A stretch of 64,000 bases of DNA from Bacteroidia bacterium (lineage in GTDB: Bacteria; Bacteroidota; Bacteroidia; J057). The notes beneath the pieces are model-generated. The model had not been told where the DNA came from. It was given only the letters and a program-made list of their open reading frames with translations, and ran no database searches. Of this stretch, positions 205 to 39,719 are shown piece after piece (position 1 is the first letter of the stretch; every line of letters begins with the position of its first letter). The position numbers and the translations under genes are program-made. The stretch is from NCBI GenBank assembly GCA_030430575.1, contig JAUIKF010000009.1, forward strand, positions 1 to 64,000, given 5' to 3'.

Positions 205-799
205 TGATATTCATCATTGCGGCGAGATGCTAGTTGCATCAAGCATTATATAATTAGCGGTTATTCTGAGGGGCGCGGATTACTCCAAAGATCCAGCCCT
301 CCAAAGCCGGAAATCCGCACCAGCTTGCTTGGCAACTAAGAAAACGCGCATTTATATGCGCTGGGCTGGATTTCTGGCGTGTGAGCCTGCCCTGAGCGTA
401 GCCGAAGGGTTGGCTTTTGAGCGTAATCCAGCCCCAAACCCATAAGAACTTCGTGCTTGATGCACTAGTTGCACGAAAGCTGAATATTCGAACTCTGAAC
501 TCTGAAACCTGAACATTCGAACTTTTGCCTTTATGGACGAGAAGAGAGGGGGGAGTGATGCGTGAGGCTAGGATCTTCGACAAGAAGTTACTGACGGTTT
601 TTGACAGATGGGTCGGATTACGCAAAGAACCTTCTCACCATCCCGAAATCCAACCTAGCGCATGATTTATGATGAGCGTCTCCTGCTTGCTAAAGCAAGC
701 TAGCGTGGATTTCGGCGGGGAGGCGTTGGCTTGTGGGTAATCCGCGCCGCTAAAAATACAGTAGGGATATGGTTAGTATAAACTTTTCCCACCCTATAC

Positions 800-22526: not shown

Positions 22527-22547
22527 ACAGCTGATTTTCAGCTAAAT

Positions 22548-22582
22548 AAAAAAGCGGGATGCATTTGCATCCCGCTTTTTTT
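22548..22582 (+). terminator. Strong rho-independent terminator of paralogue B
   Basis: Perfect stem aaagcgggatgca / tgcatcccgcttt with a 2-base loop, flanked by A and T runs (22548-22582). It may serve both directions, since the next gene (22827-25757) converges on it. Confidence 0.9.
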
Positions 22583-22625
22583 ATCTCCTTACTCTTATTA
22601 TCAAGAGCTGTTTTTAGCTACTATG

Positions 22626-22731
22626 TTGTCACTTTTTTTAGAAAAAAGTAACCAAAAAATCGAAGCGAGCCAACCAAGGCCATCCCTTCTATCCGTCCGC
22701 GCGCGCTCGCTTCACCCCAGCCGCACAAATT
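22626..22731 (-). repeat. Structured intergenic repeat, copy 1
   Basis: Two nested features: an A/T hairpin gtcactttttttagaaaaaagtaac (22628-22652, in two halves around a central a/g) and a second stem gaagcgagc (22662-22670) with gctcgcttc (22705-22713), closed by a conserved cagccgcacaaatt end. Copy 2 lies at 37171-37276 with identical spacing between the stem arms. Both copies lie directly downstream of a minus-strand gene, so they may be transcribed as 3' ends on that strand. I recall similar ggttacttttttc-type repeats in other bacteria. Confidence 0.65.
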
Positions 22732-22826
22732 TATAACCAAACTGGTCAAATTTGACCAGATGGGAAATCTTTCTAACTGCAAGAATGAATAACCAATCAA
22801 TTAATAATCAATAATTCCTCAAAAAT

Positions 22827-25757
22827 TTATCGATTACAAATCCCTCGATACGGGCAATACCCACATTTTTTCTCATCCGCCGTCTGCCGATAATCCCCTT
22901 CGAAGATGTCTTGAATCAGCACTGTAAGGTGCTGTTCAAAGGAGACTAACTCGTCTTGACGGATAGGTGCGCCCTCATTCAAATAAACCAAGCCTTCACT
23001 GAGTTTACGCGCGGTATAATAGCCCACCACAATCTCTGTATCAGGAAACTGCCGATTGTAGAGCCAAGCGTAGAGATAACCTTGAAAAGCTTCTTTTAGC
23101 CCTTTGAAACTGGGCGGCTGCTCGTCAGGGGAAAAACATTGCTCCACAGTATAAGGCTTATTAAAAGAGACATTGCCTGTCTTATAATCGACAATCCGTA
23201 TTCGCCCTGTGTCAATCACCCGATCTACCCGATCAAAAAATCCATTGAGTTTGATGCGTTTTTTATCCACAGGCAATTCGGTATAGAACAACTCGCCGTC
23301 TTCAAGATGTGCCACCTCAAAAGCCTGTTGTTCCGCCAATGCCAAATCCTGTTTCAGGATTTGCTGACAGAGTTTTCGGATGACATCTCGGTAGAGATAG
23401 TTTTTGCCGTGTAGGCGCTCCCCCCAGCCGAGATTGGAATCTTCAAACGCTCTTTTTATGTGAGGATCGAGTTGTTTCTTGAGGGATTCTACGACCGCTG
23501 GTGAGACTTTTTTTCCCACATACGGTTCATATAAAAACTCCATCGCCGCATGTAAGACCGTCCCAAAAGTATTGGCCTCCATATTTTCTTCCAGCGTTTC
23601 TGGTTCCTTGATTTTGGCGACATAGCGGTAGTAAAAGCGTAAAGGACAGGCGAGGTAAGTCGTCAGGGCCGTCGCTGAGAGGAAAGGTTGCTGATGCACC
23701 CCATCGGCTTCATATAACTGGCTGAGTTGGCCATGGGTACGTGTATCAGCGTGGACTTCTATGGGGGGTTGGGCAAAATAAGGCGCCCCCGTACTGGCCT
23801 GCCGCTCATGCAGTTGGACGTTGGGGTAGAGGTAGGCCAAATGCCGCAACTGCTGGAGGTAACGACTCATTTCGCCACTATTCCCGCCATCGCTGATATT
23901 GCTATTGTAAATCAGGTGTACTTCTTCTGCGCGCTGGAGAAGACGGTAGAAGTGGTAGGCAAAAATGGCATCTTTTTCCTCAAATGTAGGCATCCGAAAC
24001 CCCTTGCGCAGGTGATAAGGGATAAAGCTATTGCCACTGCTAGTATCGGGCAAGTTGCCTTCATTGGCTCCCAGGATATAGACGTAAGGAAAATCCAGTG
24101 TTCTCGTTTCCAGAAACCCCATCAACTGCAGCCCCTGCAGCGGCTCCCCTTCAAAAGGGATCCTCCCTTTTTTGATCACCTCGCGAAACAGCTCTGCAAA
24201 TCCTTTTAGTGTCATCTGCCCTTCATACCGGTCGAGGACTTCTTTGAGGCGATTGTAGAGGGTAAATAAATGGAAAATATATTCCGCTTCGAGGTAGACC
24301 TTGCGCTTCTGTGCATCGGCGAGAAGGTCATCAAATAACTGATCAAAATACTGCAAGGCGGTTTCTGCTTCTCTGGGGGCTTCGAAAATATGTGCCAGTA
24401 GCGGTGGCAGAGGTTTTTCAGCCAAAAAGGTGGCAGGGACCATGACCATATTCCGCTTGCGGATTTCTGCTTGGAGTGGCTCGCTGAGCTTGGGCGCAGC
24501 AGCCTTGAGATAGGCATTGTTGAGGACGGTGAGGAGTTCTTGGTGGGAAAAATACAATTGCTCATCCGCTTCAATCACCTGCTTGCGCAGCATATCCGTG
24601 ATGCTCATCAGTAGGTGGTAGATGGTAGTCTGCCGCAGGGGATAGCCCATGGTGATATTGAGCTTGTCTACTGCGTGAGGCAGGGAGTACAGCACAGGAA
24701 ACAGCAGATTCTCATCGGCAAGTACCACCGCATGTTGACGCAAAGCTTCGCTTGGCGGATGTTTTTGGGCTAATAACTGCCCTACATACTGGGCCTGACC
24801 CACTTGGACGGGAACTGCCGTCAGGTAGACGTCTTTGTGGGCGGCGTTCATGTCATGGACGATGAGTTTGGAACCCTTATTCTTCCAATCCTTATGGTAT
24901 TGGCGAATGAATTTTCCCGCTTCCTCACCGATAGCACTGAGGCGTGCTCGGTAAAAGGGTTCCCCTTGTTGAGGCATGCGGAAGGACTCTTCCATATCCC
25001 AGAAGATGGTCGCTTGCTCAGCATCCAAGAGGTGATCTATCATGCGATACTCTGCACCTGAAAGCGCGTTAAATCCCACAAAGTAGATATGCTGATAAGG
25101 CAATACGCGTGTCCCACTCTCTAGCTGGGTCACCAACTCACGGTAAGCCATGCCGTCATAGCCTTGATTGCGGGCACGCAGGCGATCGATCAACCCTTGA
25201 TACACTTCATACAGAATCTCCCAGATGTCGAGAAAAAGTTGCTTGACTTCAGAGGGTTGCTCCACTTGGCCTGTTTCGCCATGGACGGAACGCCAAAAAT
25301 TGGCGAGGGCTTTTTTATCGTCTTCTGATATCCCAAACTCGTGCTCTACCCGCTTGAGGTCGAGAATATTGGTAAAGAGGTTTTCCGCCTCGACCATGTA
25401 TTTATCCACCTCGTCAAAGTCTTTGAGAAGCATTTCGCCCCATGGAAAGAATCTTTCCAATGGTTCTTTCCAGTCGGGCCTATCCTGACGCATGCGCCCC
25501 TGGTAGACTTGGTACAGCTCGAATACGAGCGCCAGCGGCTCGGGAAACTGCCATCCCGACTGCTCCCGCACAAAGTCTTGAATAGACTGAATCTTGGGCG
25601 ACCAGATGGTGCGTTTGTATACCCTTGCAAGGGCCTCTCGTAAGAAGATGCTAGCCCTACGCGTCGGCAGGACGATGCAGACCTCGTCTACCTTATCAGG
25701 CCATTGTAGATGGATGGCTTGGGCGACCTGGTCTAGGAAAGAATTTTTATGGTTCAA
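22827..25757 (-). CDS. AddB-like PD-(D/E)XK nuclease
   Basis: About 976 residues. No ATG lies near the expected N-terminus. The TTG at 25757 gives MNHKNSFLDQVAQAIHLQW followed by VLPTRRASIFLREAL, which fits the family, so I use it; an upstream TTG at 25820 falls in palindromic DNA. The N-terminal half resembles the inactivated helicase region of AddB. The C-terminal nuclease shows GTVLHAAMEFLYEP, GFFDRVDRV, VDYKTGN and QGYLYAWLY. Cysteines in YLACPLRFYYRY and CGYCPYRGIC match the four-cysteine iron-sulfur staple of AddB-type nucleases. The expected role is processing double-strand breaks with a UvrD/RecB-like helicase, which is not next to it here. It acts in the cytoplasm. Confidence 0.8.
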   Translation of the reverse strand: MNHKNSFLDQVAQAIHLQWPDKVDEVCIVLPTRRASIFLREALARVYKRTIWSPKIQSIQDFVREQSGWQFPEPLALVFELYQVYQGRMRQDRPDWKEPLERFFPWGEMLLKDFDEVDKYMVEAENLFTNILDLKRVEHEFGISEDDKKALANFWRSVHGETGQVEQPSEVKQLFLDIWEILYEVYQGLIDRLRARNQGYDGMAYRELVTQLESGTRVLPYQHIYFVGFNALSGAEYRMIDHLLDAEQATIFWDMEESFRMPQQGEPFYRARLSAIGEEAGKFIRQYHKDWKNKGSKLIVHDMNAAHKDVYLTAVPVQVGQAQYVGQLLAQKHPPSEALRQHAVVLADENLLFPVLYSLPHAVDKLNITMGYPLRQTTIYHLLMSITDMLRKQVIEADEQLYFSHQELLTVLNNAYLKAAAPKLSEPLQAEIRKRNMVMVPATFLAEKPLPPLLAHIFEAPREAETALQYFDQLFDDLLADAQKRKVYLEAEYIFHLFTLYNRLKEVLDRYEGQMTLKGFAELFREVIKKGRIPFEGEPLQGLQLMGFLETRTLDFPYVYILGANEGNLPDTSSGNSFIPYHLRKGFRMPTFEEKDAIFAYHFYRLLQRAEEVHLIYNSNISDGGNSGEMSRYLQQLRHLAYLYPNVQLHERQASTGAPYFAQPPIEVHADTRTHGQLSQLYEADGVHQQPFLSATALTTYLACPLRFYYRYVAKIKEPETLEENMEANTFGTVLHAAMEFLYEPYVGKKVSPAVVESLKKQLDPHIKRAFEDSNLGWGERLHGKNYLYRDVIRKLCQQILKQDLALAEQQAFEVAHLEDGELFYTELPVDKKRIKLNGFFDRVDRVIDTGRIRIVDYKTGNVSFNKPYTVEQCFSPDEQPPSFKGLKEAFQGYLYAWLYNRQFPDTEIVVGYYTARKLSEGLVYLNEGAPIRQDELVSFEQHLTVLIQDIFEGDYRQTADEKKCGYCPYRGICNR

Positions 25758-25874
25758 TTTAAGTGTAGCTAAATGGCTGAATTTGAACCATATAAGACAT
25801 TTAAGGGCATATAAGATCAAGAAAGTCAGTTTGCTTATATGTTCTTATATTCCTTATATGGTTCACCTAGACAA
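25742..25874. repeat. Palindromic element over the nuclease start
   Basis: Left arm tatggttcaatttaag (25749-25764) pairs with ctgaatttgaaccata, which ends near 25795. Beyond it, words of the ttatatg/catataag type recur at 25795-25865, ending in cttatatggttca. It fills the gap between the nuclease and the large membrane-protein gene and overlaps the first codons of the nuclease. Confidence 0.6.
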
Positions 25875-25877
25875 GAC

Positions 25878-28800
25878 TTATTTTTTCTTGGTAAATATTT
25901 TCAAAATATTGATTCCGGTCATTTTCTCAATGGCGGTATAAAGGGCCGGCAGCGCCGCAGCACTCGCTGTGATGATCCCTCGGGCATCATTCAAGAGCTG
26001 TTCTTGGGTCGTCAAGAGGAAGGCACCAAGCGCAAAAAGAATAATCATGATGGGGGTGCGGATCTGTACCCATGCACTTTCTCGATTGATGCGATGCTCA
26101 AGCGTGAGGGTGTCTTCTCGGTTGATTTCCGTGAGGATAAAGTTGCGGAAACTCCGGTTCATCACCTGAAGCTGGTCGCCTGTATTGACCAGTAGCCCCT
26201 TATTGAGCAAACTCTTGATAGCTCGCACATTGCGATCATTGACTAGCCCGTCTTGCGCCAGGTCAAACATGATAAAGCGCTCCTCCCGATTACTGGTGCT
26301 CCACAGTACTTGGTAGTAAAGCTGTGCACGCAGTTCGATGTCGAGGATGATGTCCTCAGGACTGATATTATCTTTCCCTTTGTATAACTCGATAAGCTCA
26401 TCAAACATGTTGCGCAAGAACGCCCCATGGCCACATTCTTCGGCGATGAGTTCCTCGTGGGCTTCATCCCCATGTATTAGCGGATCAGATTCAAATGGAA
26501 GAGAGATTTTGTAAAAACGACTTAGGGTCTCAGTCCAGATCATCTTTTCTGCGGCAAGTTGTTGCTTCAAACTCGCATCCTCAGTTTGCTCTAGCCAGGT
26601 CGTGTAATAATCATCTATCTCTAACGGGTCTATGGCCCCTATCAGCACGACTTGACGCCATTGCTCCATAGCTTCTTTGACGATCACTAATCGGAGCAAA
26701 GCGATATCTCGCTGATCGATTTTGACTTCAAAATGATTCAGGTTGAGCACCTGCTTCCTACGACTCTTGACATGTTCTTCAGGGCTTCTGTCAGAAAACC
26801 TATTCGATTCATATGCTTCTACGGCTTTCCAGAAATCCTCTAATGTTTGAATTTCTTTGAGGCTGATAAGCATTTTATTCCGAAACTCCCGTTTGTATTT
26901 GCTGCCCATGGCCCGAGGTGGAATCACCAAGAAGGCATGCTGCTTGGTCTTGGCGAGGATACTGCGGGCTTCATCGTCATTAGGCGCTGTCATATCCAAC
27001 AAGCTTTCTGCAAATAGCCTGCGGGTGGTATAGTCAATCATGAGATACATACTCCCCACGACGACCATGAAAATTAGCCAAAAGAGCAGTCCCAGTGGGG
27101 TAGTGATATTGGGCAAATGGTAGGTATGTAAATAGGAAATGAGGGGGAGTCCATTTTTGGGGGTAAAAGCCAAATAGCGATGGGGATGGTGGGGCTGTCC
27201 TTTTAGGTATCCCACACCTTCTTCCCATTGCCAACTATTATCAGAGCTCACGACATTTCGGAGTTGATTGGTCGTGCGGACCAAGTCACTGTAGCGGGGC
27301 CTGATGCGCGAAAGCAAGCTGTCATACTTCAGCCAAGAAGGGGAAATGGGGCTCTGTAGGGTATCGGGAAGATAAAGTGGAATGTCCCACATTTTTCCCA
27401 TATCCTTGGACCCATATATAGTTTTGAAAAATGCTTCGGTATAAATCCCTTTGTGTTTGAGGGCTTCCAAGTCAGAAGGGGGTAAGGCGCGGTCACTGAA
27501 GTTCTGTTCAAGCCGCAACTCTCGCGCTTCTATATCTTTGGCAAATTGCACGTGTGCATATTTGATCGCGAGCTTCATCTCCCGGTTATAGGAAATGCTA
27601 TAGTATTGGACACTTGGGAAGACACTGAGAATCGCCAACCAGCTAAGGAGGAAAAATCGGAAACTACGCTGACGGGTAAAGAATTCGTTGAACCGCTGTA
27701 GAAAGAAATTCACTTGTGGGTTTTTCGTTTCCAACATCGGTGGTTCATCGGTGTCATCTGAAGGGCTGAAACGCCTAATCAGTTTCAGGGCGATTAGACA
27801 TACGACTATTTGCAATAATTGGTAGGGGAAATAGCCTCGAATATCGAACAGGTTGGCCTGTGGGTCCCAGTTTCCCCAATAATCATCAGAAGCAATCGCA
27901 TAGGCAGCAAAATTGAGCCCTACCAATAAGACCACCGCTCCAAAGAGGAAGCGGTATCGCTTTCGTGCTTTTTTCCCAACGATATAGATCTTCTTATCTT
28001 CTAATGCGAGGTAGGCCAGTAAGAAGGTATAAATATTGGCGAGGCCAAACATGTTGATCACGCCCAAAGCCCTTTCGCCCCTCGAAAAGAAGAAGAAAAT
28101 CACCAGGGTGACAAAATTGGCGCAGAGGAGGATACGGTAGGTATTGATATGGCGACGCTTGGGGCGTAACCAGCTAAACCAGGCGCGCGCTACATAAAGC
28201 CGCGACCGATAGGGAGTGAGGGCTATCATCAAGATGATGACGGCAAGTCCGAGGGCGAAACCTATAAGGATCAGGATAAAGGTAAAGCTGACAATCTGCT
28301 CGTGTGTACTGATATAGTATTCACGGTCTTGAAAAGTGATGAGATACAGGGGAAGGTTTTCAAGGGGTTTGAGGTAAACGTCAAAGTTTTTTCCCTGATA
28401 AGTCGCGTTGGTGTATAGGGAGCTCCTAGCATAGACTGCCGCATTTAAGGCGCGCTTATTGGTCTCTTCCAAGAAGTTTTCTTGGAGATTGCGCTTTTCA
28501 TCTGAATGAAAAAGGACTTCCCCATTTTCGTCTATGACGCAGTAGCCAAACCCTAACGGAATTACGGGTTGGATCAAGGAATACAACTTTGTAGCTAGGA
28601 AGATAATGCTTGCCGTGTCCTTCCGACTCTTTTTGGATACCACGGCGAGGTTGTCCCCGGTGGTGCGGGTTAAGATGGATTCTAGCATGAATTTGCGGGA
28701 ACCTTTGGTCCCGCTATGATCTGGCAGGGTCCATGCTTCTCCGTTGACAATGCGCTGAAGGTAAGAACGGCCAGAGACGTCGACTTTTGGTGTCAGGACA

Positions 28801-30560
28801 GACCGCGTAGTAAATTCTTGATCCAGATAATTGGTATGCGCATTTACCCAAAATACGCTTGTAAAATAGGGATAATACTGAGGAGAAATTTTTGCCGAAT
28901 CCATCAACTCTTGGCCGATCATATCTCCGTGGACATCTAAGGTATCATAGTAGGCCAGTTGGTCGTAGATGTGTTCTAGTTCATCAAAGAATTCCCCTGA
29001 AATTTGGTTGGAAAAATCGACCATCTCTTGCTTGCGGAGATTGGCATCTGGACCATTAAATCCATATACATCAAATAGCAGCAAGACAGCTGCAGCGGTC
29101 CCTAAGATAGCCGCCACCATCGTAAATACGACGTCTGAAGTTCCCATCCGCTCATAGCGACTCATCAATTTAAGCCGCAAAACAGGCAGCAATACAATCA
29201 TGGTAAATAACAGCAGCACCATCAGTAGGATGACAAGAGTCGCTATGCGAAATTTCTCCCCGGTGAATGCTCGGGTTTCAACTAGGCCACACAACACCAT
29301 CTCGTCTTGGTTCAGGGTCATGGGTTGCAGGTATACCAAATAGTCTGTTCCCCCTATTAGAAGCTCTCTGAGGGTATTGGCCTGGATTCCCAAGCCTCCT
29401 TTAGGGCTGAGCAAGGTGTCAGGTAGGTTGTCGATCTTGAGGGTATTCTGGGAATATTGATACACTAAATCTGCTACTCGCCCGTCCCCACTTTCTGAAA
29501 CCTCTCCTAACTTCAAGACCAGCAAGTCATCAAACACATCTGGGCGAAGAAGGTCTTCCATGAAGGTATTCATGGGGCGATCCAAACGAATGTGGTAATG
29601 CTGATCTGCCGTCAGTTCATGGTCTGCAAAAGTGGTATAAGTGAGGTCCCAGGTGTTGTCAGCATTCTTTCTCAACTCAGCTTTCTCCTTATCTTCTTGT
29701 GCATCATGACCTTCGTCCAATACTTGAATTTTATAAGACAGGTTTACCCGTCGTTGGTACCACGCTTCATATGCATCAAAATCCACACGGCGGGTACTTT
29801 GCCGCCTGCCATCTTGGACAATGACGGCAAAGAAGCCATCTTGAAAATCAATTTCTCCTACAGTCCTTCTGTCCTTTTTATCGATGCGATCCAGAAATCC
29901 CTGAAGTTTCTCTGAGTTGCTTTTCCTTTGGTAATAAGTCGCCCATCGATAGATCGTTTTGGGATAAGCAGCGGGGTTTGTCGTCACCTCATTCCAGAAC
30001 TCATTTTCGAAGGAAGCAAAGATTTGAGCCGTTTGTTCATCGATATTTACCTGCAAAGCATTCCAGACGTAGGGGATGAGCTTATCTTGGTCATCTTTGG
30101 GAGGAAGTGGGGGCAAATTGAGCGATTGGTTGCGAGAGGTCCAGCCTTCGAGAAAATCATAGAAATCTGCAGGCCTATTCTTGAGGTCATCAATCAAGAT
30201 GCTTTTGTAGACCGAATCATCCTTCGTGATGATAGGGAGCAAGAATTGATGGACTTTTTCATATTCCAAGGTAGTTTCCTTTTCCCATTCAAAAACCAAC
30301 TGCTCTTGCACCAGACGGGTCACCCGTTGCTTGATACTGGTGAGATCCCTCGGGACATTTGCAGTGACTTGCTTATATTGAGCATTCTTAGCAACTACAT
30401 TTTTCTGAATCTGGCTCAGCACACGGAAGTTTCGCTCATTGAGCAAGGTCGCTCGCTGTTCCACATAGACAAAGTAATAGGCTCCTAAAGCAGAAGCGAG
30501 GATAGCCAACGTGGTAAAAGTAATCGTAAGATTGCGTGTGCCAGAAGAAGTTGATTTCAT
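25878..30560 (-). CDS. Multi-domain membrane protein: dCache-like sensor, transmembrane bundle, degenerate P-loop-like domain
   Basis: 1560 residues from the ATG at 30560 (MKSTSSGTRN), which precedes the first membrane segment at about 12-32. Then: an extracytoplasmic region to about 437, membrane segments near 439-462 and 477-497, a dCache-like sensor region about 505-750 (VDVSGRSYLQRIVNGEAW, FGYCVIDENGEVLFHSD), a cluster of membrane segments at 757-980, another outside loop about 995-1150, a segment at 1156-1175, and a cytosolic domain at 1190-1490. In the latter, FLVIPPRAMGSKYKR (1210-1224) stands where a P-loop would be, and VLNLNHFEV (1271-1279) and VVLIGAIDP (1304-1312) look like Walker B and sensor strands without the catalytic residues. 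A winged-helix-like part follows (1430-1478), then two more hydrophobic segments. Function unknown; signal sensing is inference. Confidence 0.65.
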   Translation of the reverse strand: MKSTSSGTRNLTITFTTLAILASALGAYYFVYVEQRATLLNERNFRVLSQIQKNVVAKNAQYKQVTANVPRDLTSIKQRVTRLVQEQLVFEWEKETTLEYEKVHQFLLPIITKDDSVYKSILIDDLKNRPADFYDFLEGWTSRNQSLNLPPLPPKDDQDKLIPYVWNALQVNIDEQTAQIFASFENEFWNEVTTNPAAYPKTIYRWATYYQRKSNSEKLQGFLDRIDKKDRRTVGEIDFQDGFFAVIVQDGRRQSTRRVDFDAYEAWYQRRVNLSYKIQVLDEGHDAQEDKEKAELRKNADNTWDLTYTTFADHELTADQHYHIRLDRPMNTFMEDLLRPDVFDDLLVLKLGEVSESGDGRVADLVYQYSQNTLKIDNLPDTLLSPKGGLGIQANTLRELLIGGTDYLVYLQPMTLNQDEMVLCGLVETRAFTGEKFRIATLVILLMVLLLFTMIVLLPVLRLKLMSRYERMGTSDVVFTMVAAILGTAAAVLLLFDVYGFNGPDANLRKQEMVDFSNQISGEFFDELEHIYDQLAYYDTLDVHGDMIGQELMDSAKISPQYYPYFTSVFWVNAHTNYLDQEFTTRSVLTPKVDVSGRSYLQRIVNGEAWTLPDHSGTKGSRKFMLESILTRTTGDNLAVVSKKSRKDTASIIFLATKLYSLIQPVIPLGFGYCVIDENGEVLFHSDEKRNLQENFLEETNKRALNAAVYARSSLYTNATYQGKNFDVYLKPLENLPLYLITFQDREYYISTHEQIVSFTFILILIGFALGLAVIILMIALTPYRSRLYVARAWFSWLRPKRRHINTYRILLCANFVTLVIFFFFSRGERALGVINMFGLANIYTFLLAYLALEDKKIYIVGKKARKRYRFLFGAVVLLVGLNFAAYAIASDDYWGNWDPQANLFDIRGYFPYQLLQIVVCLIALKLIRRFSPSDDTDEPPMLETKNPQVNFFLQRFNEFFTRQRSFRFFLLSWLAILSVFPSVQYYSISYNREMKLAIKYAHVQFAKDIEARELRLEQNFSDRALPPSDLEALKHKGIYTEAFFKTIYGSKDMGKMWDIPLYLPDTLQSPISPSWLKYDSLLSRIRPRYSDLVRTTNQLRNVVSSDNSWQWEEGVGYLKGQPHHPHRYLAFTPKNGLPLISYLHTYHLPNITTPLGLLFWLIFMVVVGSMYLMIDYTTRRLFAESLLDMTAPNDDEARSILAKTKQHAFLVIPPRAMGSKYKREFRNKMLISLKEIQTLEDFWKAVEAYESNRFSDRSPEEHVKSRRKQVLNLNHFEVKIDQRDIALLRLVIVKEAMEQWRQVVLIGAIDPLEIDDYYTTWLEQTEDASLKQQLAAEKMIWTETLSRFYKISLPFESDPLIHGDEAHEELIAEECGHGAFLRNMFDELIELYKGKDNISPEDIILDIELRAQLYYQVLWSTSNREERFIMFDLAQDGLVNDRNVRAIKSLLNKGLLVNTGDQLQVMNRSFRNFILTEINREDTLTLEHRINRESAWVQIRTPIMIILFALGAFLLTTQEQLLNDARGIITASAAALPALYTAIEKMTGINILKIFTKKK

Positions 30561-30924
30561 GGTGGTGGAGGTGTAGTGAGTCGAAATGCCAAATGTCTCT
30601 AGTCCAAATATATACATTCAGACTGGAAATCAGCAGTCTTTGGAGATGAGTGATTCGATTTTAGTACAAAAAATTAAAATAATGCTGCAAAACCACCCCA
30701 ATTAGAGGCCGCCTTTTACCCGCTAACGGACGTTATTGTAGGAAGAAATGAGTGGTAGGTTAATTTTGAATGACTGAATGGTGAATTTTGAATAGAAAGG
30801 CAATATTCAACACCATAACTCATTCAAAATCCCTTCATTCAAAATTCAAAATTATCCCCATCCTCATTCAAAATTTCTTCATTCAATCATCCTATCATTC
30901 TCTCATTCCATCATTTTCTTAATT
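30561..30924. repeat. Intergenic region with ttgaatg-word palindromic element
   Basis: From about 30757 to 30920 the DNA is made of words such as ttttgaatgactgaatggtgaa on the left and cattcaaaat, cattcaaaattcaaaatt and cattcaatcat on the right, which are largely complementary. I see no gene. It separates the divergent membrane-protein gene and the secreted-protein gene, so promoters of both must lie here, but none could be placed with confidence. Confidence 0.6.
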
Positions 30925-33141
30925 ATGAAGCAACGTCTACTACTACTCTTATTTGCCAGTATGCTAATAGGGTTGGGTGCCACCCTATTCAGCGGAAATC
31001 CCCCTACGACTCGCACCAATGCGCCAGGTGAAAGCAACTGTACAGCTTGCCATTCTGGGGTTCTCAACAATGGTCCTGGAAGCCTTTCGCTGAATGTCCC
31101 TTCGAGTTATACCCCCGGGACTACCTATAACCTGACCATGAGCCTGGTAGATAATACCCGATCGCGGTTCGGATTTTCTGCGACAGTTCTCAATGGATCC
31201 AACGCCGCTGCAGGGACCCTGATTCGTACCAATACCACGAACACTTCCCTTCAGACAGCTTCTGTATCTGGTGGCACGCGTCAATACATAGGTCATCGCA
31301 ACGCCAATACGACGGTGAAGTCATGGAGCTTTCAGTGGACAGCCCCAGCGACCAATGTCGGACCCGTGACTTTCTATGCAGCAGGCAATGCCACCAATAA
31401 TAACTTTGGTACTACTGGTGACAATGTCTATGCACAATCTTTTGTGATTCAGCCCGCCGCCACGCCGCCTTCGGCGTCGTTTACCCCTGCCTCGCTTTCG
31501 CATTGCATCGGTGGCCCATTGACCTTTACCGACAATTCTTCTGGAGGAGTCACCACTTACAATTGGGACTTTGGCGCTGGCGCATTACCTGCGACCTCTA
31601 CCATGAGCGGCCCGCACAATATTGTCTATGCCAATCCAGGGACCAAAACGATCCGCCTGATCGTGAGCAATGCTGCTGGGGCTGATACTTCTTTTGCGAC
31701 TGTCGTGGTTCATGCCCAGCCTGTGGTGACGCTCTCAGGCATCTTGGCACGGTACTGCGACCAAGACGCATCTAGCCAATTTATTGGGACGCCTGCAGGA
31801 GGCACCTTCTTTGGGACCGGAAGTGGCGGAGCCACTTTCGATCCTGCCATAGCAGGTCTAGGGACTCACCTCATCAAATATGCCTATACAGATTCGAATG
31901 GCTGTAGCAGTGCAGACTCTACCACGATCAGTGTCTTGGCCAGTCCCGATCCAGGCCTTATGCCTAATGATACATCGATTTGCCAAGGCACCAATCTCAG
32001 GCTCTCAGCAACGCCAGGATTCCTGAATTATCAATGGTCTACAGGGGCGAGCACCGCCCTGATTTTTGTAGATACTGCAGCTACCTATAGCGTCACCGTG
32101 ACGGGCATCAATTTCTGTACTGGGACAGACTCTGTCAATATCGCTGTCGTACAAGCCCTGATGCCAACCTTTGGGCAATTGGATACAACCCTTTGTGACA
32201 ACGAACCAGCAGTCACAGTCCAACCAACACCCGCAGGAGGTACTTTCTCAGGAGCTGTAGATGCTAATGGCATGTTTGATCCCCAAGCTGCAGGGGCTGG
32301 TATGCATAGTTTCTCCTATTCAGTGATGGACACTACAGGATGCTCTGGGAGCATAAGCACGAATTTCACTGTTTTTGCGGCGCCTGATGCAGAGATTACA
32401 GGGTTTGTGGATTCAGCTATTACCTCGATCTGTAGAGATGATGCGGTATTGACATTGGCTGGAACGCCCAGTGGTGGCACTTTTGCAGGCAAAGGCATTT
32501 CTGGAAGTGATTTTGATCCTGCAGTGGCTGATTCAGGGATCAATTATGTCACCTATACCATCACCACAGCTGATGGGTGTAGCGACTCCACGGTGTTGGG
32601 GGTCAATGTCATCGACTTGGCATTGCCACTGATCAATCAACACGATCCCGATTCGCTCAGTACAGCCCCTGGCTATACAAGTTACCAGTGGGTATTTCTA
32701 AATGTCATGACAGGAGATACCTTTCATATAGCGGGCGCTACGGGACGAGCCATTAACTTTAAGGAACAGAATGCAAATCCCCAGAATACCAATGTCTATG
32801 TAGTATATGTCACGGGGCCAGAAAGTTGTGGGAAAATGTCTCCTGGTTTTACCCCATTTACCCAAAGCATCGATCCCGCTGAGCTGCTGTCAGACCTGCG
32901 CATTTATCCAAACCCCACTGCCAATTTGCTGGAAATCGACTACTTACTTCACAGACCTGAAAGCATTTCCGTTTCCTTGATTGATATTCGGGGAAAAACT
33001 GTTTGGCAAAAAACGTATCCTGAAATGCGTTTAGAAGGGCATTTGCAAGTGGAGACTAGGCATTTGCCAGAAGGGTTTTATCTGCTGAACCTCGATGTTG
33101 ACGGCCAACAGTCCGTCAGGAAAGTGGTAGTACGGCGATAG
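30925..33141 (+). CDS. T9SS-exported choice-of-anchor-V-type protein with CxxCH
   Basis: 738 residues from the ATG at 30925, with a signal peptide (MKQRLLLLLFASMLIGLGA). The N-terminal domain carries APGESNCTACHSG (C39, C42, H43), a CxxCH motif that could bind haem c, followed by a Reeler-like beta domain of the type annotated as choice-of-anchor V. Then come a PKD domain (YNWDFGAGA), three or more Ig-like repeats with the Cys/Asp pattern CQGTNLRLSATPG, and a T9SS type A sorting domain (LRIYPNPTANLLEIDYLL ... GQQSVRKVVVRR). The product should be exported across both membranes. Haem attachment is possible but not proven, as the same motif is conserved in family members I recall without known haem. 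Transcribed alone, divergent from 25878-30560. Confidence 0.8.
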   Translation: MKQRLLLLLFASMLIGLGATLFSGNPPTTRTNAPGESNCTACHSGVLNNGPGSLSLNVPSSYTPGTTYNLTMSLVDNTRSRFGFSATVLNGSNAAAGTLIRTNTTNTSLQTASVSGGTRQYIGHRNANTTVKSWSFQWTAPATNVGPVTFYAAGNATNNNFGTTGDNVYAQSFVIQPAATPPSASFTPASLSHCIGGPLTFTDNSSGGVTTYNWDFGAGALPATSTMSGPHNIVYANPGTKTIRLIVSNAAGADTSFATVVVHAQPVVTLSGILARYCDQDASSQFIGTPAGGTFFGTGSGGATFDPAIAGLGTHLIKYAYTDSNGCSSADSTTISVLASPDPGLMPNDTSICQGTNLRLSATPGFLNYQWSTGASTALIFVDTAATYSVTVTGINFCTGTDSVNIAVVQALMPTFGQLDTTLCDNEPAVTVQPTPAGGTFSGAVDANGMFDPQAAGAGMHSFSYSVMDTTGCSGSISTNFTVFAAPDAEITGFVDSAITSICRDDAVLTLAGTPSGGTFAGKGISGSDFDPAVADSGINYVTYTITTADGCSDSTVLGVNVIDLALPLINQHDPDSLSTAPGYTSYQWVFLNVMTGDTFHIAGATGRAINFKEQNANPQNTNVYVVYVTGPESCGKMSPGFTPFTQSIDPAELLSDLRIYPNPTANLLEIDYLLHRPESISVSLIDIRGKTVWQKTYPEMRLEGHLQVETRHLPEGFYLLNLDVDGQQSVRKVVVRR

Positions 33142-33186
33142 CCAAAAGGCTTTAAAACTTCAAGTTCAAGCTCACCTAGAAAATTT

Positions 33187-33253
33187 GCCACGGATTACAC
33201 GGATTTACACAGATTAGAGAAAGAAATCTGTGAGAATCTGTGTAATCCGTGGC
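33187..33253. repeat. Inverted repeat of the atccgtgtaatc type
   Basis: gccacggattaca (33187-33199) pairs exactly with tgtaatccgtggc (33241-33253), with more pairing inside (cagatt / aatctg). I know this as a widely scattered intergenic repeat in Bacteroidota. It follows the stop at 33141 and may help end transcription. Confidence 0.75.
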
Positions 33254-33371
33254 TTATTCTTCCTTCGTCACTAAAACCCTTGATGAACCAGAAAATTTAG
33301 ATACTTCAGTTTTTGTATGTGAACGGACAAGTCTTTAGGATACTTATCGCTAGTTTCGGTCAAAAGATCAC

Positions 33372-34424
33372 ATGCGCCTATTAACTTTCTTTCTACTCCT
33401 TTCGATTGGTGTGACTGCCTGCAAAGCACCCACATCACCAGCACCTTCTTCCAATGATAACCGCTGGTTGGTTCCCGTGGGACTCGTAAAAGACGGCGGC
33501 CCAGGCAAAGATGGGATTCCTGTGCTCGAAGCGCCTCTATTTGTACCCATCGACTCGATTGGGTATTTGAAGGAAGAGGACTTGGTCCTTGGACTTCGAG
33601 TGGGGACGGATATTCGCGCCTATCCGCACAATATTCTCAACTACCATGAGATCGTCAATGATTTGGTAGGGGGCGAACCTCTCGCTGTCACTTATTGTCC
33701 CTTTACAGGTACTGGTGTGGGCATAAGTCGCGATATCTTAGGGAGTGTCACGACCTTTGGGGTTTCAGGATTATTGTACCAAACCAATCTTATGCCTTTT
33801 GACCGGGAGACAGGCAGTACCTGGTCCCAGATGTTGACGCAGTGTGTGAATGGGGAACATATTGGAAAAGGGCAAAAAATTATTCCCATGATAGAGACAT
33901 CCTGGAAAACCTGGAAAGAGATGTATCCCGAGAGCCGGGTGCTGTCTGCCGAAACAGGCTTTAATTGGGATTATGACCAATACCCCTATCTAGACTATCG
34001 CACAGATCATGATTTTTTCATCTTTCCCCCTGATAGCTTGGATGCGCGCCTGCCCTATAAGGAGCGCGTCCATGGAATCATTCATTATCAAGACGTGAAA
34101 GTATACCGTTTTTCAGCATTTGGAGATAGTGTCACTGTGATCGCTGATCAGTTTGGCGGGAACCATTTTGTGCTGGCAGGCAGCAAAGATCGGAATTTCA
34201 TCGTGTCCTACGATGCCGAGCTATCGGGGGTGGGCCGCCTATATTTCACAGCTGTCAATGATGGCTCTGTCATCATCATGCATGACCAGTATGGCAACCA
34301 GTGGGACATTTTTGGCCGAGCGGTGAGCGGGCCTCAGGCTGGCCAGGAGCTGAAACCGACGAAGTCGTTTATGGGATATTGGTACGGCTGGGGAGCTGTG
34401 TATTCGGGGACGATGATTTATTGA
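33372..34424 (+). CDS. DUF3179 domain lipoprotein
   Basis: 350 residues from the ATG at 33372. The N-terminus MRLLTFFLLLSIGVTAC is a lipoprotein signal with Cys17 as the lipid site, so the protein is held in a membrane facing the periplasm or outside. The body matches the DUF3179 family: DSIGYLKEEDLVLGL, DIRAYPHNILNYHEIVND, LAVTYCPFTGTGVG and LMPFDRETGSTWSQM are its usual landmarks. The family has no established function that I know of. The Tyr-Cys-Pro motif is conserved and may be functional. It seems to be transcribed alone. Confidence 0.85.
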   Translation: MRLLTFFLLLSIGVTACKAPTSPAPSSNDNRWLVPVGLVKDGGPGKDGIPVLEAPLFVPIDSIGYLKEEDLVLGLRVGTDIRAYPHNILNYHEIVNDLVGGEPLAVTYCPFTGTGVGISRDILGSVTTFGVSGLLYQTNLMPFDRETGSTWSQMLTQCVNGEHIGKGQKIIPMIETSWKTWKEMYPESRVLSAETGFNWDYDQYPYLDYRTDHDFFIFPPDSLDARLPYKERVHGIIHYQDVKVYRFSAFGDSVTVIADQFGGNHFVLAGSKDRNFIVSYDAELSGVGRLYFTAVNDGSVIIMHDQYGNQWDIFGRAVSGPQAGQELKPTKSFMGYWYGWGAVYSGTMIY

Positions 34425-34877
34425 ACATTAGTCCTTTATCACCCTCTAGCTACACGGAACCAAAGGTCTTTAATAGGCAAAAGCAGCAGAGCTGTCATGC
34501 TGAGCTGAGCGAAGCATCTTACTAGGCTAATGATCCAGAAATAGTTAGATTCTTCACTTCGTTGCTTATGGAAGTGTTTTCATTGTGCTGATTATCAGTC
34601 GTTTACAGAAGCGTATTTTCGCCTGTTTGAACCCCTGCCAAAGCCTTCGGCTTTGGCGTCCCCTCAAGAGGGGACTTTAGAAAATAGCGAAGCCATTTGA
34701 GAGATTAGTGCGGGTTGTTCCCCTTCCTGAGGGGGAACGGGGCTGCGCGGAGGGGGTTCAACAGCGTAAGGGCGAAGCCCTTGTCATAAGCCATTAGAAG
34801 TATCGGGAAATTGACCAATCCATAAGCCTTTTATATCCTCCATTGCAGAGATTTGTATTACTCCGTTATAGTTGGTT
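34425..34877. repeat. Intergenic region with several hairpin repeats
   Basis: No gene seen. It holds a gtcatgctgagc...cgaagcatc repeat (34494-34519), a hairpin gccaaagcc/ggctttggc (34637-34657), a second hairpin gtcccctc/gaggggac (34658-34675) and a third gttcccc/ggggaac (34717-34737). These are common interspersed elements in Bacteroidota as far as I recall. The genes on both sides converge here, so the hairpins may act as shared transcription ends. Confidence 0.65.
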
Positions 34878-36122
34878 TCACACCCACTCCCCCTTAATCA
34901 TCACCCGATCGATCAAATTACTCGCATACGAGTAAGGAATCCTCGCAAAGGAATCCAGCGGCTGAGTGACGACGAGGTCGGCCTGCTTGCCTGGCTCGAT
35001 AGAGCCTACTTTCTCGGACATGCGGAGCGCCCAGGCGCCGTTGAGGGTGGAGGCGCAGAGCGCCTCTTCGGGGAGCATATTCATATGCGTGCATGCCAAT
35101 GACATCACAAATGGCATGCTGCCGCCTGGCGACGAGCCAGGGTTGTAATCGGTGGCGAGGGTCACGGGCAAGCCCGCTTCCATCATCTCTCTGGCTGGGC
35201 CATAGTCGATCCCTAAGAAGTACGCCACCGAGGGGAGGAGTGTAGGCACCGTGGTAGAACCCACGAGGGCTTCGATCTCGTCTGGGCCAGAGCGCTCCAG
35301 GTGATCCACGGAGATGGCGTTGCATTTTACGCCGACTTGAACGCCACCTGAGAAGGCGAGTTCATTGGCGTGAATTTTGGCTCCGAGGCCATATTTTGCC
35401 CCTTTTTTGATAATATACTCCGTTTCCTCTACCGTGAAAAACCCCTCATCACAGAACACGTCGATGAATTCTGCAAGGTTCTGATCCACGACCTGAGGAA
35501 GCATCACATCACAGACGAGGTCGATGTATTGCTGGCGGTCATTTTTGTAATTGGCAGGGATGGCGTGTGCGCCAAGAAAAGTAGTCTTGATGTTGAGCGG
35601 AACATGTTCCTTGAGGGCATTAGCGACGCGGAGGAGCTTAAGTTCACTCTCAACGGTAAGGCCGTAGCCGCTTTTGATTTCGACAGTCGTCGTACCAAAT
35701 CCCATGATCTCCTTGGCCCGTTCGATGGTCTCTTCAAGGAGTTGCTCCTCGGAGATGTGCGCGAGGCTTTTGGCGGAGTTGAGGATGCCGCCGCCTTTGC
35801 GGGCGATCTCCTCATAGCTCATGCCTTTGAGGCGGTAGACAAATTCTTGTTCGCGGGTTTTGGGGAATACCAGGTGGGTGTGGCTATCGACAAAACCTGG
35901 AAGGACGAGCTTCCCTTTACAATCGATGCGCTCAGCGCCGCGATAGGCGCGTGGCTGGAGGGTCGCCATGCTCCCTACGGCCTTGATGGTGTCATCAACG
36001 ATGTAGACATATGCACTTTCGAGCATGGCAGCGTCAGCCATGTCTGTGCCCTTTTTGAATGCTTCGCCTTGAGTAGAAATCCGATACAGTTTGGAGATGT
36101 CGGTCAGTAACAGTTGGGTCAC
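34878..36122 (-). CDS. hutI: Imidazolonepropionase
   Basis: 414 residues with a GTG start at 36122. This is the third enzyme of histidine breakdown, a metal-dependent amidohydrolase that converts 4-imidazolone-5-propanoate to N-formimidoyl-L-glutamate in the cytoplasm. Visible landmarks are GFVDSHTHLVFPKTREQEF (the HxH metal site and the substrate-binding segment), RKGGGILNSAK, TTVEIKSGYGL, KIHANELAFSGG (third metal His) and LATDYNPGSSPGGSMPFVM (catalytic Asp and substrate loop). The length is normal for HutI. It starts 2 bases after the stop of the MCE gene, so the two are probably co-transcribed. The other hut genes are not in this window. Confidence 0.95.
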   Translation of the reverse strand: MTQLLLTDISKLYRISTQGEAFKKGTDMADAAMLESAYVYIVDDTIKAVGSMATLQPRAYRGAERIDCKGKLVLPGFVDSHTHLVFPKTREQEFVYRLKGMSYEEIARKGGGILNSAKSLAHISEEQLLEETIERAKEIMGFGTTTVEIKSGYGLTVESELKLLRVANALKEHVPLNIKTTFLGAHAIPANYKNDRQQYIDLVCDVMLPQVVDQNLAEFIDVFCDEGFFTVEETEYIIKKGAKYGLGAKIHANELAFSGGVQVGVKCNAISVDHLERSGPDEIEALVGSTTVPTLLPSVAYFLGIDYGPAREMMEAGLPVTLATDYNPGSSPGGSMPFVMSLACTHMNMLPEEALCASTLNGAWALRMSEKVGSIEPGKQADLVVTQPLDSFARIPYSYASNLIDRVMIKGEWV

Positions 36123-36124
36123 GG

Positions 36125-37129
36125 TTAGTTTGGATCGAGTTGTTTTTTGATAGAATCTACTTCTTGCTTTAGTGCTTCGAGTTCACGGGGGGCTTTCTTT
36201 TTTCTTTCAAAGACATATACATCGATGTCGAGGTACCTTTTGGGATTTTTCTGGACGTCTGCGAGCAGGGCCTTAACAGACTTCACGGTTCCATTCAGTT
36301 CGTCATACAGGCCTTTATCTCCGATGAGTTTGCCGAGGCTTCCTTCGCCATCATTGATCTTGCTCACGACTTCGTCCATGCCTTGCATGGCGCTTTTCGC
36401 TGAGGCTAGCATTTCAGTGGTCGCAGGCCCGAGGGAGTCGGAGACGTCTTTGAAGTTTACAATGATACTGGAGAGCTTCTCTTTATTTTCCGCCAAGCCA
36501 TCCGAAAAGGTCTTGAGATTGGGCATGGTCTTTTCGAGTTCTCGGGAGATTCCTGCAAAATTCCCCATGGTCTCATCCATGTTTTTGAGAATGCTTTCTA
36601 GCTCATCTCGCTCTTGCAATTCAGAAAAGGAGGTATCTAATTTAGTGGTGATAGAAGCCAGGTTGGCGACCATGGAGCTGATGTCTTCGAGCAAGGATTC
36701 TCCTTTTGTCTCAAGGATGTTTGTTGCCTTACCCATCATGCCTTCGTCAGTACCCCCTGTGATAAATCCCTCATCTTCAATGAGTTGGTCCGATTTCCCT
36801 CGCTCTAGTTTGATCGCCATGGCTCCCAACAGGTCTTTGGTGAAAATAACAGCCCTTGAGTCCACAGGAATCGGCCGTTCGTCGTGAAGCTCCATCTCCA
36901 CCAAAACGGTGTCACCGATAAGTTCCAACTCCATCACCTGCCCTACATCGAGGCCATTGATCCGGACGGGATTCCCGCGAATGAGGCCTTTGGCGTCGGG
37001 ATATTTAGCATAGAGAACCATGCTGTTGCCAATAATGCGCTTGCCTTGCATGGTGCGAATCCCTACGACAAAAGCCACTGCGGCGATGATCGCGTAGATG
37101 CCAAATTTGATTTCTTTGCTAAATTTCAA
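36125..37129 (-). CDS. MCE/MlaD-family lipid transport protein
   Basis: 334 residues from the ATG at 37129. A single N-terminal membrane segment (FGIYAIIAAVAFVVGIRTM) is followed by an MCE domain at about 36-115 (DAKGLIRGNPVRINGLDVG, AVIFTKDLLGAMAIKLERG) and a long helical, coiled-coil-rich tail to the end. This is the build of MlaD-like substrate-binding subunits that carry phospholipids between the inner and outer membranes as part of an MlaEFD-type ABC system. The permease and ATPase genes are not next to it. It lies directly upstream of hutI with a 2-base gap. A structured repeat sits just before its start. Confidence 0.9.
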   Translation of the reverse strand: MKFSKEIKFGIYAIIAAVAFVVGIRTMQGKRIIGNSMVLYAKYPDAKGLIRGNPVRINGLDVGQVMELELIGDTVLVEMELHDERPIPVDSRAVIFTKDLLGAMAIKLERGKSDQLIEDEGFITGGTDEGMMGKATNILETKGESLLEDISSMVANLASITTKLDTSFSELQERDELESILKNMDETMGNFAGISRELEKTMPNLKTFSDGLAENKEKLSSIIVNFKDVSDSLGPATTEMLASAKSAMQGMDEVVSKINDGEGSLGKLIGDKGLYDELNGTVKSVKALLADVQKNPKRYLDIDVYVFERKKKAPRELEALKQEVDSIKKQLDPN

Positions 37130-37170
37130 AGTAAAAACAGATTATTAGTGAATTTATAACTTTTATCTGT

Positions 37171-37276
37171 GTGTTACTTTTTTTAGAAAAAAGTAACCAA
37201 AAAATCGAAACGGGCCAACCAAGGCCAACCCCACAATCCATCCGCCCGCGCCCGTTTCATCCCAGCCGCACAAATT
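37171..37276 (-). repeat. Structured intergenic repeat, copy 2
   Basis: Matches 22626-22731: A/T hairpin gttacttttttta with gaaaaaagtaac (37173-37197, fully paired here), then stem gaaacgggc (37207-37215) and gcccgtttc (37250-37258), then cagccgcacaaatt. Compared with copy 1, two stem positions changed together on both sides so pairing is kept. It lies downstream of the minus-strand methyltransferase gene and upstream of the MCE gene. Confidence 0.65.
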
Positions 37277-37319
37277 GATTTATTCAAGCGGCTCACTTGA
37301 ACTTCGAATATAGGGGAAA

Positions 37320-38162
37320 TTAAGGAATTAAGCGAAAGTGCTCTTTCGCTTGAGGCCTTCTGAGCCAGCAGAGACCCAATGTGAACAAATCTATGCTCAC
37401 GGTGACTTCAGGGTGGGCGCAGATTTCTCTCCATGCTTTCCGCATTCCAGTCGACCAATAGATGTCATCAAAGATGAGTAACCCGCCATCTTTCATCATA
37501 GGGAGTAATTGCTGAAAATAGGCCATTGTCGGCTCATAGCGATGGTTGCCATCCACAAATACGTAGTCAGGCTGGAAGCTTTCTTGCGCTAATTGTGCCA
37601 AGGTCTTGGAGAATTCCCCCACCCGTATTTCGGGAGTAACCCCAAATTCCTCAAAATGCTGCTGCGCATACCTCGCTAGGCTCGGCGCACCTTCCATGGT
37701 CACAAAATGTGCATCTTGAAGGGCGGTAGCCTGATACAAAGTCGAAATGCCTAGATGGGTACCAAATTCTAAGCAGGTGGTAGGTTGATAATGCTTGCAG
37801 ATGCGGTGGAGCAATTCTCCCATGCGTGGCCTTCGAGAGGCGGTGCGGGCGAGTTGACCAATGGTCGCTGTGGTGACAGCTTGGGCCTGGCCGGCACGGC
37901 CTGCGCCGTGGTCGGGATAAGAAACGACCTCCTTGGCGCGCACCAATTCTTTGCGCAATGCTTCTATCTTTCGCCCATTTGCTGATACATGGTGGGGCAA
38001 TACTTGGGTGGCAAATTCAAATACAAATGGGGAATGAATCGCGTTCAGCCGTTTGGCTGTCCACCAATGGGTGATCGCTTGTGATATGGTAGAGAGAGAA
38101 ATGAAAATAAGAATTAAAATTAAAATGAAAATTGAGGTCTGAAGCCATGCTCCAAACCTCAA
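37320..38162 (-). CDS. Class I SAM-dependent methyltransferase
   Basis: 280 residues if the TTG at 38162 is used. It is the only ATG, GTG or TTG before the conserved part, but the first 25 residues (with FILILILIFISL) come from an A/T repeat and may not be natural. The family-like part begins near IHSPFVFEF. The SAM-binding motif I is CLEFGTHLGISTLYQA; DYVFVDGNHRYEPTMAYF holds the later acidic motif, and GGLLIFDDIYWSTGMR is a typical O-methyltransferase-like stretch. The acceptor is unknown. It is 27 bases downstream of a lipoprotein gene on the same strand, so they may share a transcript. Confidence 0.8.
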   Translation of the reverse strand: MRFGAWLQTSIFILILILIFISLSTISQAITHWWTAKRLNAIHSPFVFEFATQVLPHHVSANGRKIEALRKELVRAKEVVSYPDHGAGRAGQAQAVTTATIGQLARTASRRPRMGELLHRICKHYQPTTCLEFGTHLGISTLYQATALQDAHFVTMEGAPSLARYAQQHFEEFGVTPEIRVGEFSKTLAQLAQESFQPDYVFVDGNHRYEPTMAYFQQLLPMMKDGGLLIFDDIYWSTGMRKAWREICAHPEVTVSIDLFTLGLCWLRRPQAKEHFRLIP

Positions 38163-38189
38163 TCATAGATCATTCATCTAAAATTATCG

Positions 38190-39107: not shown

Positions 39108-39159
39108 TTTTTGACAAAGATGATGTTATCTCAAAGCAAGTTACACATAAGTATGAAAA

Positions 39160-39672: not shown

Positions 39673-39719
39673 AAAAAAATGATTAAATAAAGGCTAAATT
39701 TGCAGAAATATTTTCCCCC

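Follow-up and report, generated by a model that had tools for sequence, protein, structure and literature searches.

A 64,000-nucleotide stretch of the genome of a Bacteroidia bacterium (GTDB lineage Bacteria; Bacteroidota; Bacteroidia; J057; GenBank assembly GCA_030430575.1, contig JAUIKF010000009.1, positions 1 to 64,000 of the forward strand; hereafter the window) contains two copies of a 99-base intergenic repeat with a paired stem. We propose that these copies belong to a family of non-autonomous, dispersed mobile DNA elements, similar to repetitive extragenic palindromes (REPs) and miniature inverted-repeat transposable elements (MITEs), that would act as single-stranded DNA hairpins. 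We put the probability of this reading, with a mechanism that we infer, at about 0.6. The initial annotation had suggested a transcribed structured element, either a 3' end signal, a small RNA or a mobile repeat of REP type; the last of these survives because the family is high in copy number, intergenic, absent at the five orthologous gene edges compared in a congener, and diverging in its stems by paired changes.

Both copies share one layout, consisting of an A/T hairpin (GT[TC]ACTTTTTT-TAG-AAAAAAGTAAC), a CAAAAAATC linker, a 9-bp stem enclosing a 34-base loop, and a CAGCCGCAC tail (A[CT]CCCAGCCGCAC). As originally described, the stem arms GAAGCGAGC/GCTCGCTTC and GAAACGGGC/GCCCGTTTC both span 52 bases and differ between the copies at two pairs, each altered on both arms, and a second hairpin is part of the unit. 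In copy 1 this hairpin is GTCACTTTTTTTAGAAAAAAGTAAC, with a single mismatch; copy 2 has GTTAC...GTAAC. The conserved end had been given as cagccgcacaaatt. Over 61 aligned copy ends the CAGCCGCAC part is indeed conserved, but information falls at the next base and the bases that follow are variable, which sets the right boundary of the unit.

The 18-mer AAAAAAGTAACCAAAAAA occurs 60 times in the 8.16-Mb source genome, while its reversed control does not occur, and the copies are therefore not due to chance. The genome-wide covariance-model search proposed in the initial annotation was performed with a model built from 19 sequences (14 source-genome copies, one further copy from the same genome and four from G005, another genome of the taxonomic family) and revealed a high-copy family. 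At E values up to 0.001 there were 81 matches in the source genome, 85 in G005, 12 in G002, six in G004 and two in the congener G001, whereas 8 of the 13 family genomes had no match; as no more than 150 candidates per genome were scored, the high counts are lower bounds. The 77 intact copies of the source genome lie mainly between genes: 33 are flanked by two genes on the minus strand of the element and 16 by two on its plus strand, divergent gaps hold 13 and convergent gaps 9, 2 fall inside an open reading frame (ORF) call and 4 lie at locus edges (gene calls for placement used a custom hexamer score and no standard gene finder; an earlier count on 65 matches, with 27, 14, 10 and 8 in the first four classes, is superseded). 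In 395 genomes drawn from the phylum, the exact A/T core was absent from 393 and present only in the source genome (60) and in G231 (1), so that its distribution is wide but thin. Plasmid and phage records contained no match to a window copy, one Pseudomonas repeat had no plasmid match, and the linker-loop pattern had no match in IMG/VR. A text search of the literature did not find the element strings or those of the TTCG module described below, leaving descriptions elsewhere possible, and shorter strings gave nothing on the subject by title among the matches listed. At one G005 locus (L182 843-1721) a 293-bp unit is repeated three times in tandem, with one element in each.

The compensatory stem changes proved to be real and far more numerous in the family than in the two window copies. 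In the 19-sequence alignment the stem was 100% paired, with two-sided changes in 5 of 9 pairs, 4 invariant pairs and no one-sided change, and the covariation score was reached by none of 500 shuffles and by no slid register. Two-sided changes were found in 9/9 stem pairs both in 54 model-aligned matches from 37 loci, the weakest of which include likely spurious reverse-strand matches of the A/T hairpin, and in 75 distinct rows from 47 G005 loci; the rows of these two alignments are related, partly overlap, and were aligned by a model already containing the structure. Further copies changed on one side only, which the initial annotation had named as the pattern that would speak against it, were nearly absent, with no such cell in the 19 sequences and 1 in the 75 rows. 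In rows with at least 6 paired stem positions, G·T occupied 1/438 stem cells (49 rows) and 1/673 (75 rows). In the source genome, 75 of the 77 copies could be parsed. The 9-bp stem is perfect in 60 of them, with five letter versions; two contain one G·T, and one, a chimera of the two stem subfamilies, A and B, contains a mismatch as well as a G·T. The other 12 have an insertion in the 3' arm (site 3), so that the arm is misread. Stem letters vary between subfamilies and between genera, nearly always on both arms.

Comparison with the congener G001 further supported mobility. The gap matching that of window copy 2 is short and empty in G001, with the genes on both sides conserved, and no element stands beside the conserved gene of copy 1, of the copy at L051 8537 or of two L020 copies, for which synteny extends to one side only. 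The element is missing at 5/5 gene edges examined in this test, and a search of the G001 loci with the covariance model, run without filters, found none at the sites. The three queried stretches hold six copies, the sixth of which (L051 2010) could not be placed. No target-site duplication was seen, the loci compared including no clean empty site.

Folded as DNA, each copy forms the two hairpins on either strand. In RNA folds, the plus strand, on which the A/T hairpin comes first, cleanly forms the A/T hairpin and the stem in both copies (z -2.7 and -5.3 for copies 1 and 2), and the minimum-energy fold of the minus strand lacks the stem in copy 1 and has it in copy 2 (z -1.9 and -2.2). The A/T-first strand outdoes the other in RNA folding and at least equals it in DNA folding, and on this strand the loop, with 44-46% C and 16-17% G, looks as if kept free of pairing. 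From the G·T deficit, the loop bias and the strand folding we infer that single-stranded DNA is the form in which the hairpin matters. The element would be recognised in this form, most likely on the strand reading A/T hairpin, linker, stem and tail 5' to 3', and an enzyme acting in trans, for which an HUH/Y1-type or other single-strand transposase is a candidate, would spread it into intergenic DNA. The stem would be read by shape, letting its letters drift when both arms change together and giving rise to subfamilies and genus-specific stems, while the A/T tract, linker and tail would be read by sequence and hence kept. Effects on the transcription of neighbouring genes, if any, would be incidental.

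Besides the shared rows and built-in structure of the two larger alignments, several observations weigh against this reading. The count of further pair types was no higher than in shuffles (370, 59 and 65 of 500 were at least as high in three alignments), stem mismatches other than G·T occupied 12/438 and 30/673 cells, and G·T was present in 3 of 63 uninterrupted source-genome stems, one of them the A/B chimera that is also mismatched. In the A/T hairpin, U-G often forms the outermost pair (16 and 35 rows), perhaps a matter of register, and the near-absence of G·T could stem from mutational palindrome correction without an enzyme. No clean empty site was found that would show the insertion point or a target duplication, absence in G001 would fit loss there as well as gain here, and pure DNA mobility does not predict the 2:1 sense-strand bias described below. 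When replication-strand orientation was examined on 59 listed places of contig C1 in G005, the sampled skew was too noisy and no significant bias emerged, taking position 0 as origin giving p 0.26 and taking dnaA giving p 0.09. Finally, no mobilising gene was found in the genomes examined. Y1_Tnp genes occur at 25 places in 11 of 21 genomes, and none of these places has an element in its locus of at most about 1.5 kb on each side, as judged by regular expression and by covariance model (0 matches at E up to 1), and the Y1 genes nearest to a copy in the source genome are about 3.3 kb (contig C77) and 4.7 kb (C73) away. Nor does Y1_Tnp track the element, since G002 (89% complete) has elements and 0 Y1 matches and G012 has 7 Y1_Tnp matches and no element.

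Positions of the two window copies and their parts
Feature	Position	Strand	Basis
Copy 1, whole 99-base unit	22628-22726	+	sequence
Copy 1 A/T hairpin GTCACTTTTTTTAGAAAAAAGTAAC, one mismatch	22628..22652	+	sequence, DNA fold
Copy 1 linker CAAAAAATC; site 1, TTCG module here in some other copies	22653..22661	+	sequence
Copy 1 stem arm GAAGCGAGC, subfamily A	22662..22670	+	sequence, stem alignments
Copy 1 34-base loop; site 2, TTCG module here in some other copies	22671..22704	+	sequence
Copy 1 stem arm GCTCGCTTC; site 3, ~47-base hairpin module here in some other copies	22705..22713	+	sequence
Copy 1 tail ACCCCAGCCGCAC, conserved; unit's right boundary	22714..22726	+	61 aligned ends
Copy 2, whole 99-base unit, same orientation as copy 1	37173-37271	+	sequence
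Copy 2 A/T hairpin GTTACTTTTTTTAGAAAAAAGTAAC (GTTAC...GTAAC)	37173..37197	+	sequence, DNA fold
Copy 2 linker CAAAAAATC	37198..37206	+	sequence
Copy 2 stem arm GAAACGGGC, subfamily B	37207..37215	+	sequence, stem alignments
Copy 2 34-base loop	37216..37249	+	sequence
Copy 2 stem arm GCCCGTTTC	37250..37258	+	sequence, stem alignments
Copy 2 conserved tail ATCCCAGCCGCAC	37259..37271	+	sequence, aligned ends

The search for an enzyme also bears on whether the repeats are simply the REPs of a canonical REP-associated tyrosine transposase (RAYT), as in Pseudomonas, which we consider unlikely. An excerpt of PMC3733652 describes REP families with alternative complementary stem residues, and the Y1_Tnp genes of the source genome include, in addition to an IS200-like remnant with a stop and an IS200-like TnpA, one RAYT carrying the YIHQNP motif, which matches the motif given for subclass 2.6 TnpA(REP) in an excerpt of PMC6006769. 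However, this RAYT is flanked by a different REP, the element is present in 0/25 Y1 loci, the single Y1_Tnp locus of G005 lacks it despite 85 matches in that genome, and size and tag do not fit. The RAYT gene, at L039 1040-2240, has several copies of its own REP (GGGCGGATT...AATCCGCCCCAGC) on both sides. Profiles built from ten RAYT-like and seven IS200-like proteins gave no match in 125 cross-phylum loci, and no transposase was recognised by eye in the 15 largest ORF groups common to 67 source-genome loci; the largest of these groups are readings of the repeat itself, and other shared groups, in at most 4 loci each, look like ordinary gene families. In addition, an autonomous version with an internal gene was sought and rejected, as each of 15 additional right ends has its left half no more than about 150 bases away; at L116 that half lacks the 5' arm of the A/T hairpin. 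ORFs that by eye resemble sigma factors, and are homologous to each other, occur in 4 of the 67 element loci (L029, L116, L120 and L126), three of which have a second shared ORF alongside, possibly by chance in a genome rich in such genes.

We regard it as distinctly unlikely that the element is instead a transcribed RNA, such as a terminator, 3' end stabiliser or small RNA, whose minus strand would carry the GC stem, then TTTTTTGG, then the A/T hairpin, with the stem kept for RNA folding. The orientation of copies relative to genes speaks in its favour: of the co-directional placements, 33 of 49 in the source genome (33:16, p 0.02) and 24 of 36 in G005 (24:12) have the minus strand as sense strand, or 57:28 pooled (p 0.002, with G005 doublets not independent), and this 2:1 bias may reflect a transcription-related effect. 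Likewise, the GC stem precedes a T run, and a terminator-like site was scored within copy 2. Placement is nonetheless not tied to gene 3' ends. The 71 placed source-genome copies comprise 49 co-directional, 13 divergent and 9 convergent cases, compared with 89, 17 and 14 gaps of these loci that lack an element and are 50 bases or longer. In G005, where 59 elements in 40 loci are divided into 24 and 12 co-directional (minus- and plus-strand sense), 10 divergent, 11 convergent and 2 at edges, the gaps holding elements number 27, 7 and 8 against a baseline of 130, 37 and 17. Divergent gaps are thus not depleted (13/71 copies, p 0.54; 7/42 G005 gaps, p 0.83), and no share departs significantly from its baseline, the nearest being a slight excess of convergent gaps in G005 (8/42 vs 17/184, p 0.10), which would fit an RNA element. 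With gap shares close to those of element-free gaps in both genomes, and divergent gaps not rare, the proposed 3' end signal or intrinsic terminator is not supported.

The initial annotation had also placed both window copies immediately downstream of minus-strand genes. This is correct, with the addition that copy 1, in a convergent gap, is downstream of a plus-strand gene as well, but it does not hold as a rule across the family, in which the tail-side gene ends towards the element in 42 of 71 placed copies (binomial p 0.15). The genes flanking copy 1 each have their own terminator-like hairpin before the element, at 22554-22582 for the plus-strand gene (by eye, with a 2-base loop outside the scan rule) and at 22742-22759 (scored on the minus strand). 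Transcription of the element as a minus-strand RNA is further disfavoured by the copy 1 RNA fold without the stem, even though copy 2 has it, by the 34-base loop, and by the near-absence of G·T; Di Nocera and colleagues (PMC3733652, in excerpt) read frequent GT pairs within GTAG REPs as pointing to a function as RNA. Rfam gave no match at gathering score in window positions 20000-40000, and with E values up to 5 the surroundings of copy 1 gave weak matches only, below that score.

Elements range from the 99-bp short form to roughly 200 bp, as hairpin modules are added at three fixed sites. A TTCG module of 23-24 bases, [TC]CCTTCG[AG]C-nnn-GCTCAGG[AG]CA[AG]G with two or three variable bases and occasional departures, is inserted at the linker (site 1) and/or the loop (site 2) of some longer copies; among 35 such modules in the scanned loci, a sample chosen for element presence, 24 lie within counted elements, 24/24 in the element's orientation. 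A hairpin module of about 47 bases occupies the 3' arm (site 3) in both subfamilies, in slightly different versions, with 10 exact end matches that all fall within elements. The window also contains a lone CCTTCGGCnnnGCTCAGG module outside any element (386-413, minus strand), which occurs at two fixed sites within some element copies with a hypervariable middle. Another palindromic repeat, TGAACCATATAAG...CTTATATGGTTCA, lies at window positions 25761-25875 and has about 10 diverged relatives in G001 and more in source-genome loci L124, L120, L029, L113 and L064.

The 47 G005 loci additionally contain 13 inverted doublets, 23-145 bp apart and with tails facing, in which the A/T hairpins are outermost except for one L184 half without a recognisable one. 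Together with nine inverted pairs in Pseudomonas, Acetobacteraceae and Cystobacterineae, these raise the prospect that the doublets are the true units and the repeat is the long terminal inverted repeat of a MITE mobilised by a DDE transposase. We assign this only a small probability. Source-genome copies are single, no inverted doublet being present among the 65 matches listed for that genome, and they end sharply at CCGCAC without terminal inverted repeats. In G005 the halves carry different stems in 13/13 doublets (by eye), and the nine pairs elsewhere contain neither a recognised transposase (two longest ORFs each, by eye) nor a match to the RAYT or IS200 profiles; target duplication was likewise not seen, though no clean empty site was available. 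An equally slight chance goes to a mutational origin, partly compatible with the mobile DNA reading, in which template-switch correction of imperfect palindromes during replication, not selection, changed the stems and the element spread by other means: two-sided changes almost without G·T intermediates fit it, but stem length and register are kept across many sequences and genera, and unpaired stems, which would persist if unselected, are rare among uninterrupted stems.

Outside the taxonomic family, the core TTTTTGGTTACTTTTTTN{1,14}AAAAAAGTNAC occurs in at least 117 stretches of genome contigs (80 listed), several of them metagenome bins, from Bacteroidota, Pseudomonadota, Myxococcota, Bacillota and, on one contig, Campylobacterota. 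Taxa among the matches listed are Pseudomonas, Acetobacteraceae, Oxalobacteraceae, Rubrivivax, Cystobacterineae, Clostridia, Alistipes, Pedobacter, Mucilaginibacter, Emticicia, Cardinium, Saprospiraceae, one Sulfurovum contig and others. IMG/VR contained 8 stretches with the core, and 0 and 0 with two permuted controls. In the nine inverted pairs of Pseudomonas, Acetobacteraceae and Cystobacterineae, the units stand on opposite strands with their tails inward. Among 71 distinct examples whose loop has 5 bases or more, this loop was complementary to the bases after CCAAAAA beyond all of 1000 permutations (summed match 254 vs mean 208, maximum 230; 26 examples with at least 4 matches vs mean 14.6, maximum 25), a result inflated by related rows and one in which the window loop (TAG) is too short to take part. 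Such a pattern, predicted from sequence to form an H-type pseudoknot, would apply to part of the families. In L227, L224, L313, L259 and others, the loop of the A/T hairpin and the bases following CCAAAAA are reverse complements of each other (for example CTTGAT / ATCAAG). At L199 2028-2178, a match to the TwoAYGGAY RNA (RF01731; 47.4 bits vs a cut-off of 43) falls within a Pseudomonas inverted pair, and L202, L246, L236 and L253 had none at E up to 0.05. The recurrence of the core in five phyla points to a possible wider, unnamed class. Only tentatively, and with the odds against it, do we suggest that the window copies belong to a pan-bacterial superfamily with the core GT[TC]ACTTTTTT-loop-AAAAAAGTAACCAAAAA, moved as single-stranded DNA by one widely shared enzyme and forming a pseudoknot in part of its members; the core-bearing repeats may be one family or may have converged.

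In many bacterial genomes, short palindromic repeats rank with the most abundant kinds of mobile DNA. The many natural stem variants of the same shape allow a test of whether a transposase is guided by the shape of a DNA hairpin alone, and the recurrence of the A/T core across five phyla offers a handle for finding the enzyme. In addition, the near-absence of G·T is a simple indicator that may help to separate DNA-level from RNA-level hairpins in other repeats.

Among known systems, the element resembles the REPs that accompany RAYTs, including GTAG- and CGTC-tagged REPs, bacterial interspersed mosaic elements (BIMEs) and REP doublets forming hairpins (REPINs). It shares with them high copy number, intergenic position (2/77 copies inside an ORF call), a hairpin, and alternative complementary stems. 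The common unit of BIMEs and REPINs is an inverted doublet, seen here 13 times in the G005 loci but not among the 65 matches listed for the source genome. REPs, however, are single palindromes of 20-40 bp with a short loop, whereas the element has 99 bases or more, two hairpins with optional modules, and a 34-base loop. The REP tag GT[AG]G or CGTC is not at the foot of its stem, which reads ..ATC before GAAGC on one side and GTGCGGCTGGG[GA]T before GAA.. on the other strand (by eye). Unlike for REPs with RAYTs, no flanking RAYT was found for the element, which does not avoid divergent gaps and has a stem almost without G·T. Of the two tagged REP superfamilies, only GTAG has a proposed dedicated enzyme, according to an excerpt of PMC3733652. 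The atypical repeats of subclass 2.6 TnpA(REP) (RAYT group 5), compared through their description in part of PMC6006769, are also dispersed hairpins of Bacteroidetes without a GT[AG]G tag, but here the 2.6-like RAYT (L039) is flanked by another repeat. The TIRtrons, or TIRYT repeats, as described in part of PMC3733652, are similarly long, partly self-complementary, and single or in dimers, but flank tyrosine transposase genes, whereas no Y1 gene was found in the loci here. The TwoAYGGAY RNA family is matched by one Pseudomonas inverted pair with the A/T core and not by the window copies. MITEs derived from IS200/IS605 are called PATEs. No IS200-type TnpA is linked to the element, but the element and PATEs have in common hairpins and single units without terminal inverted repeats.

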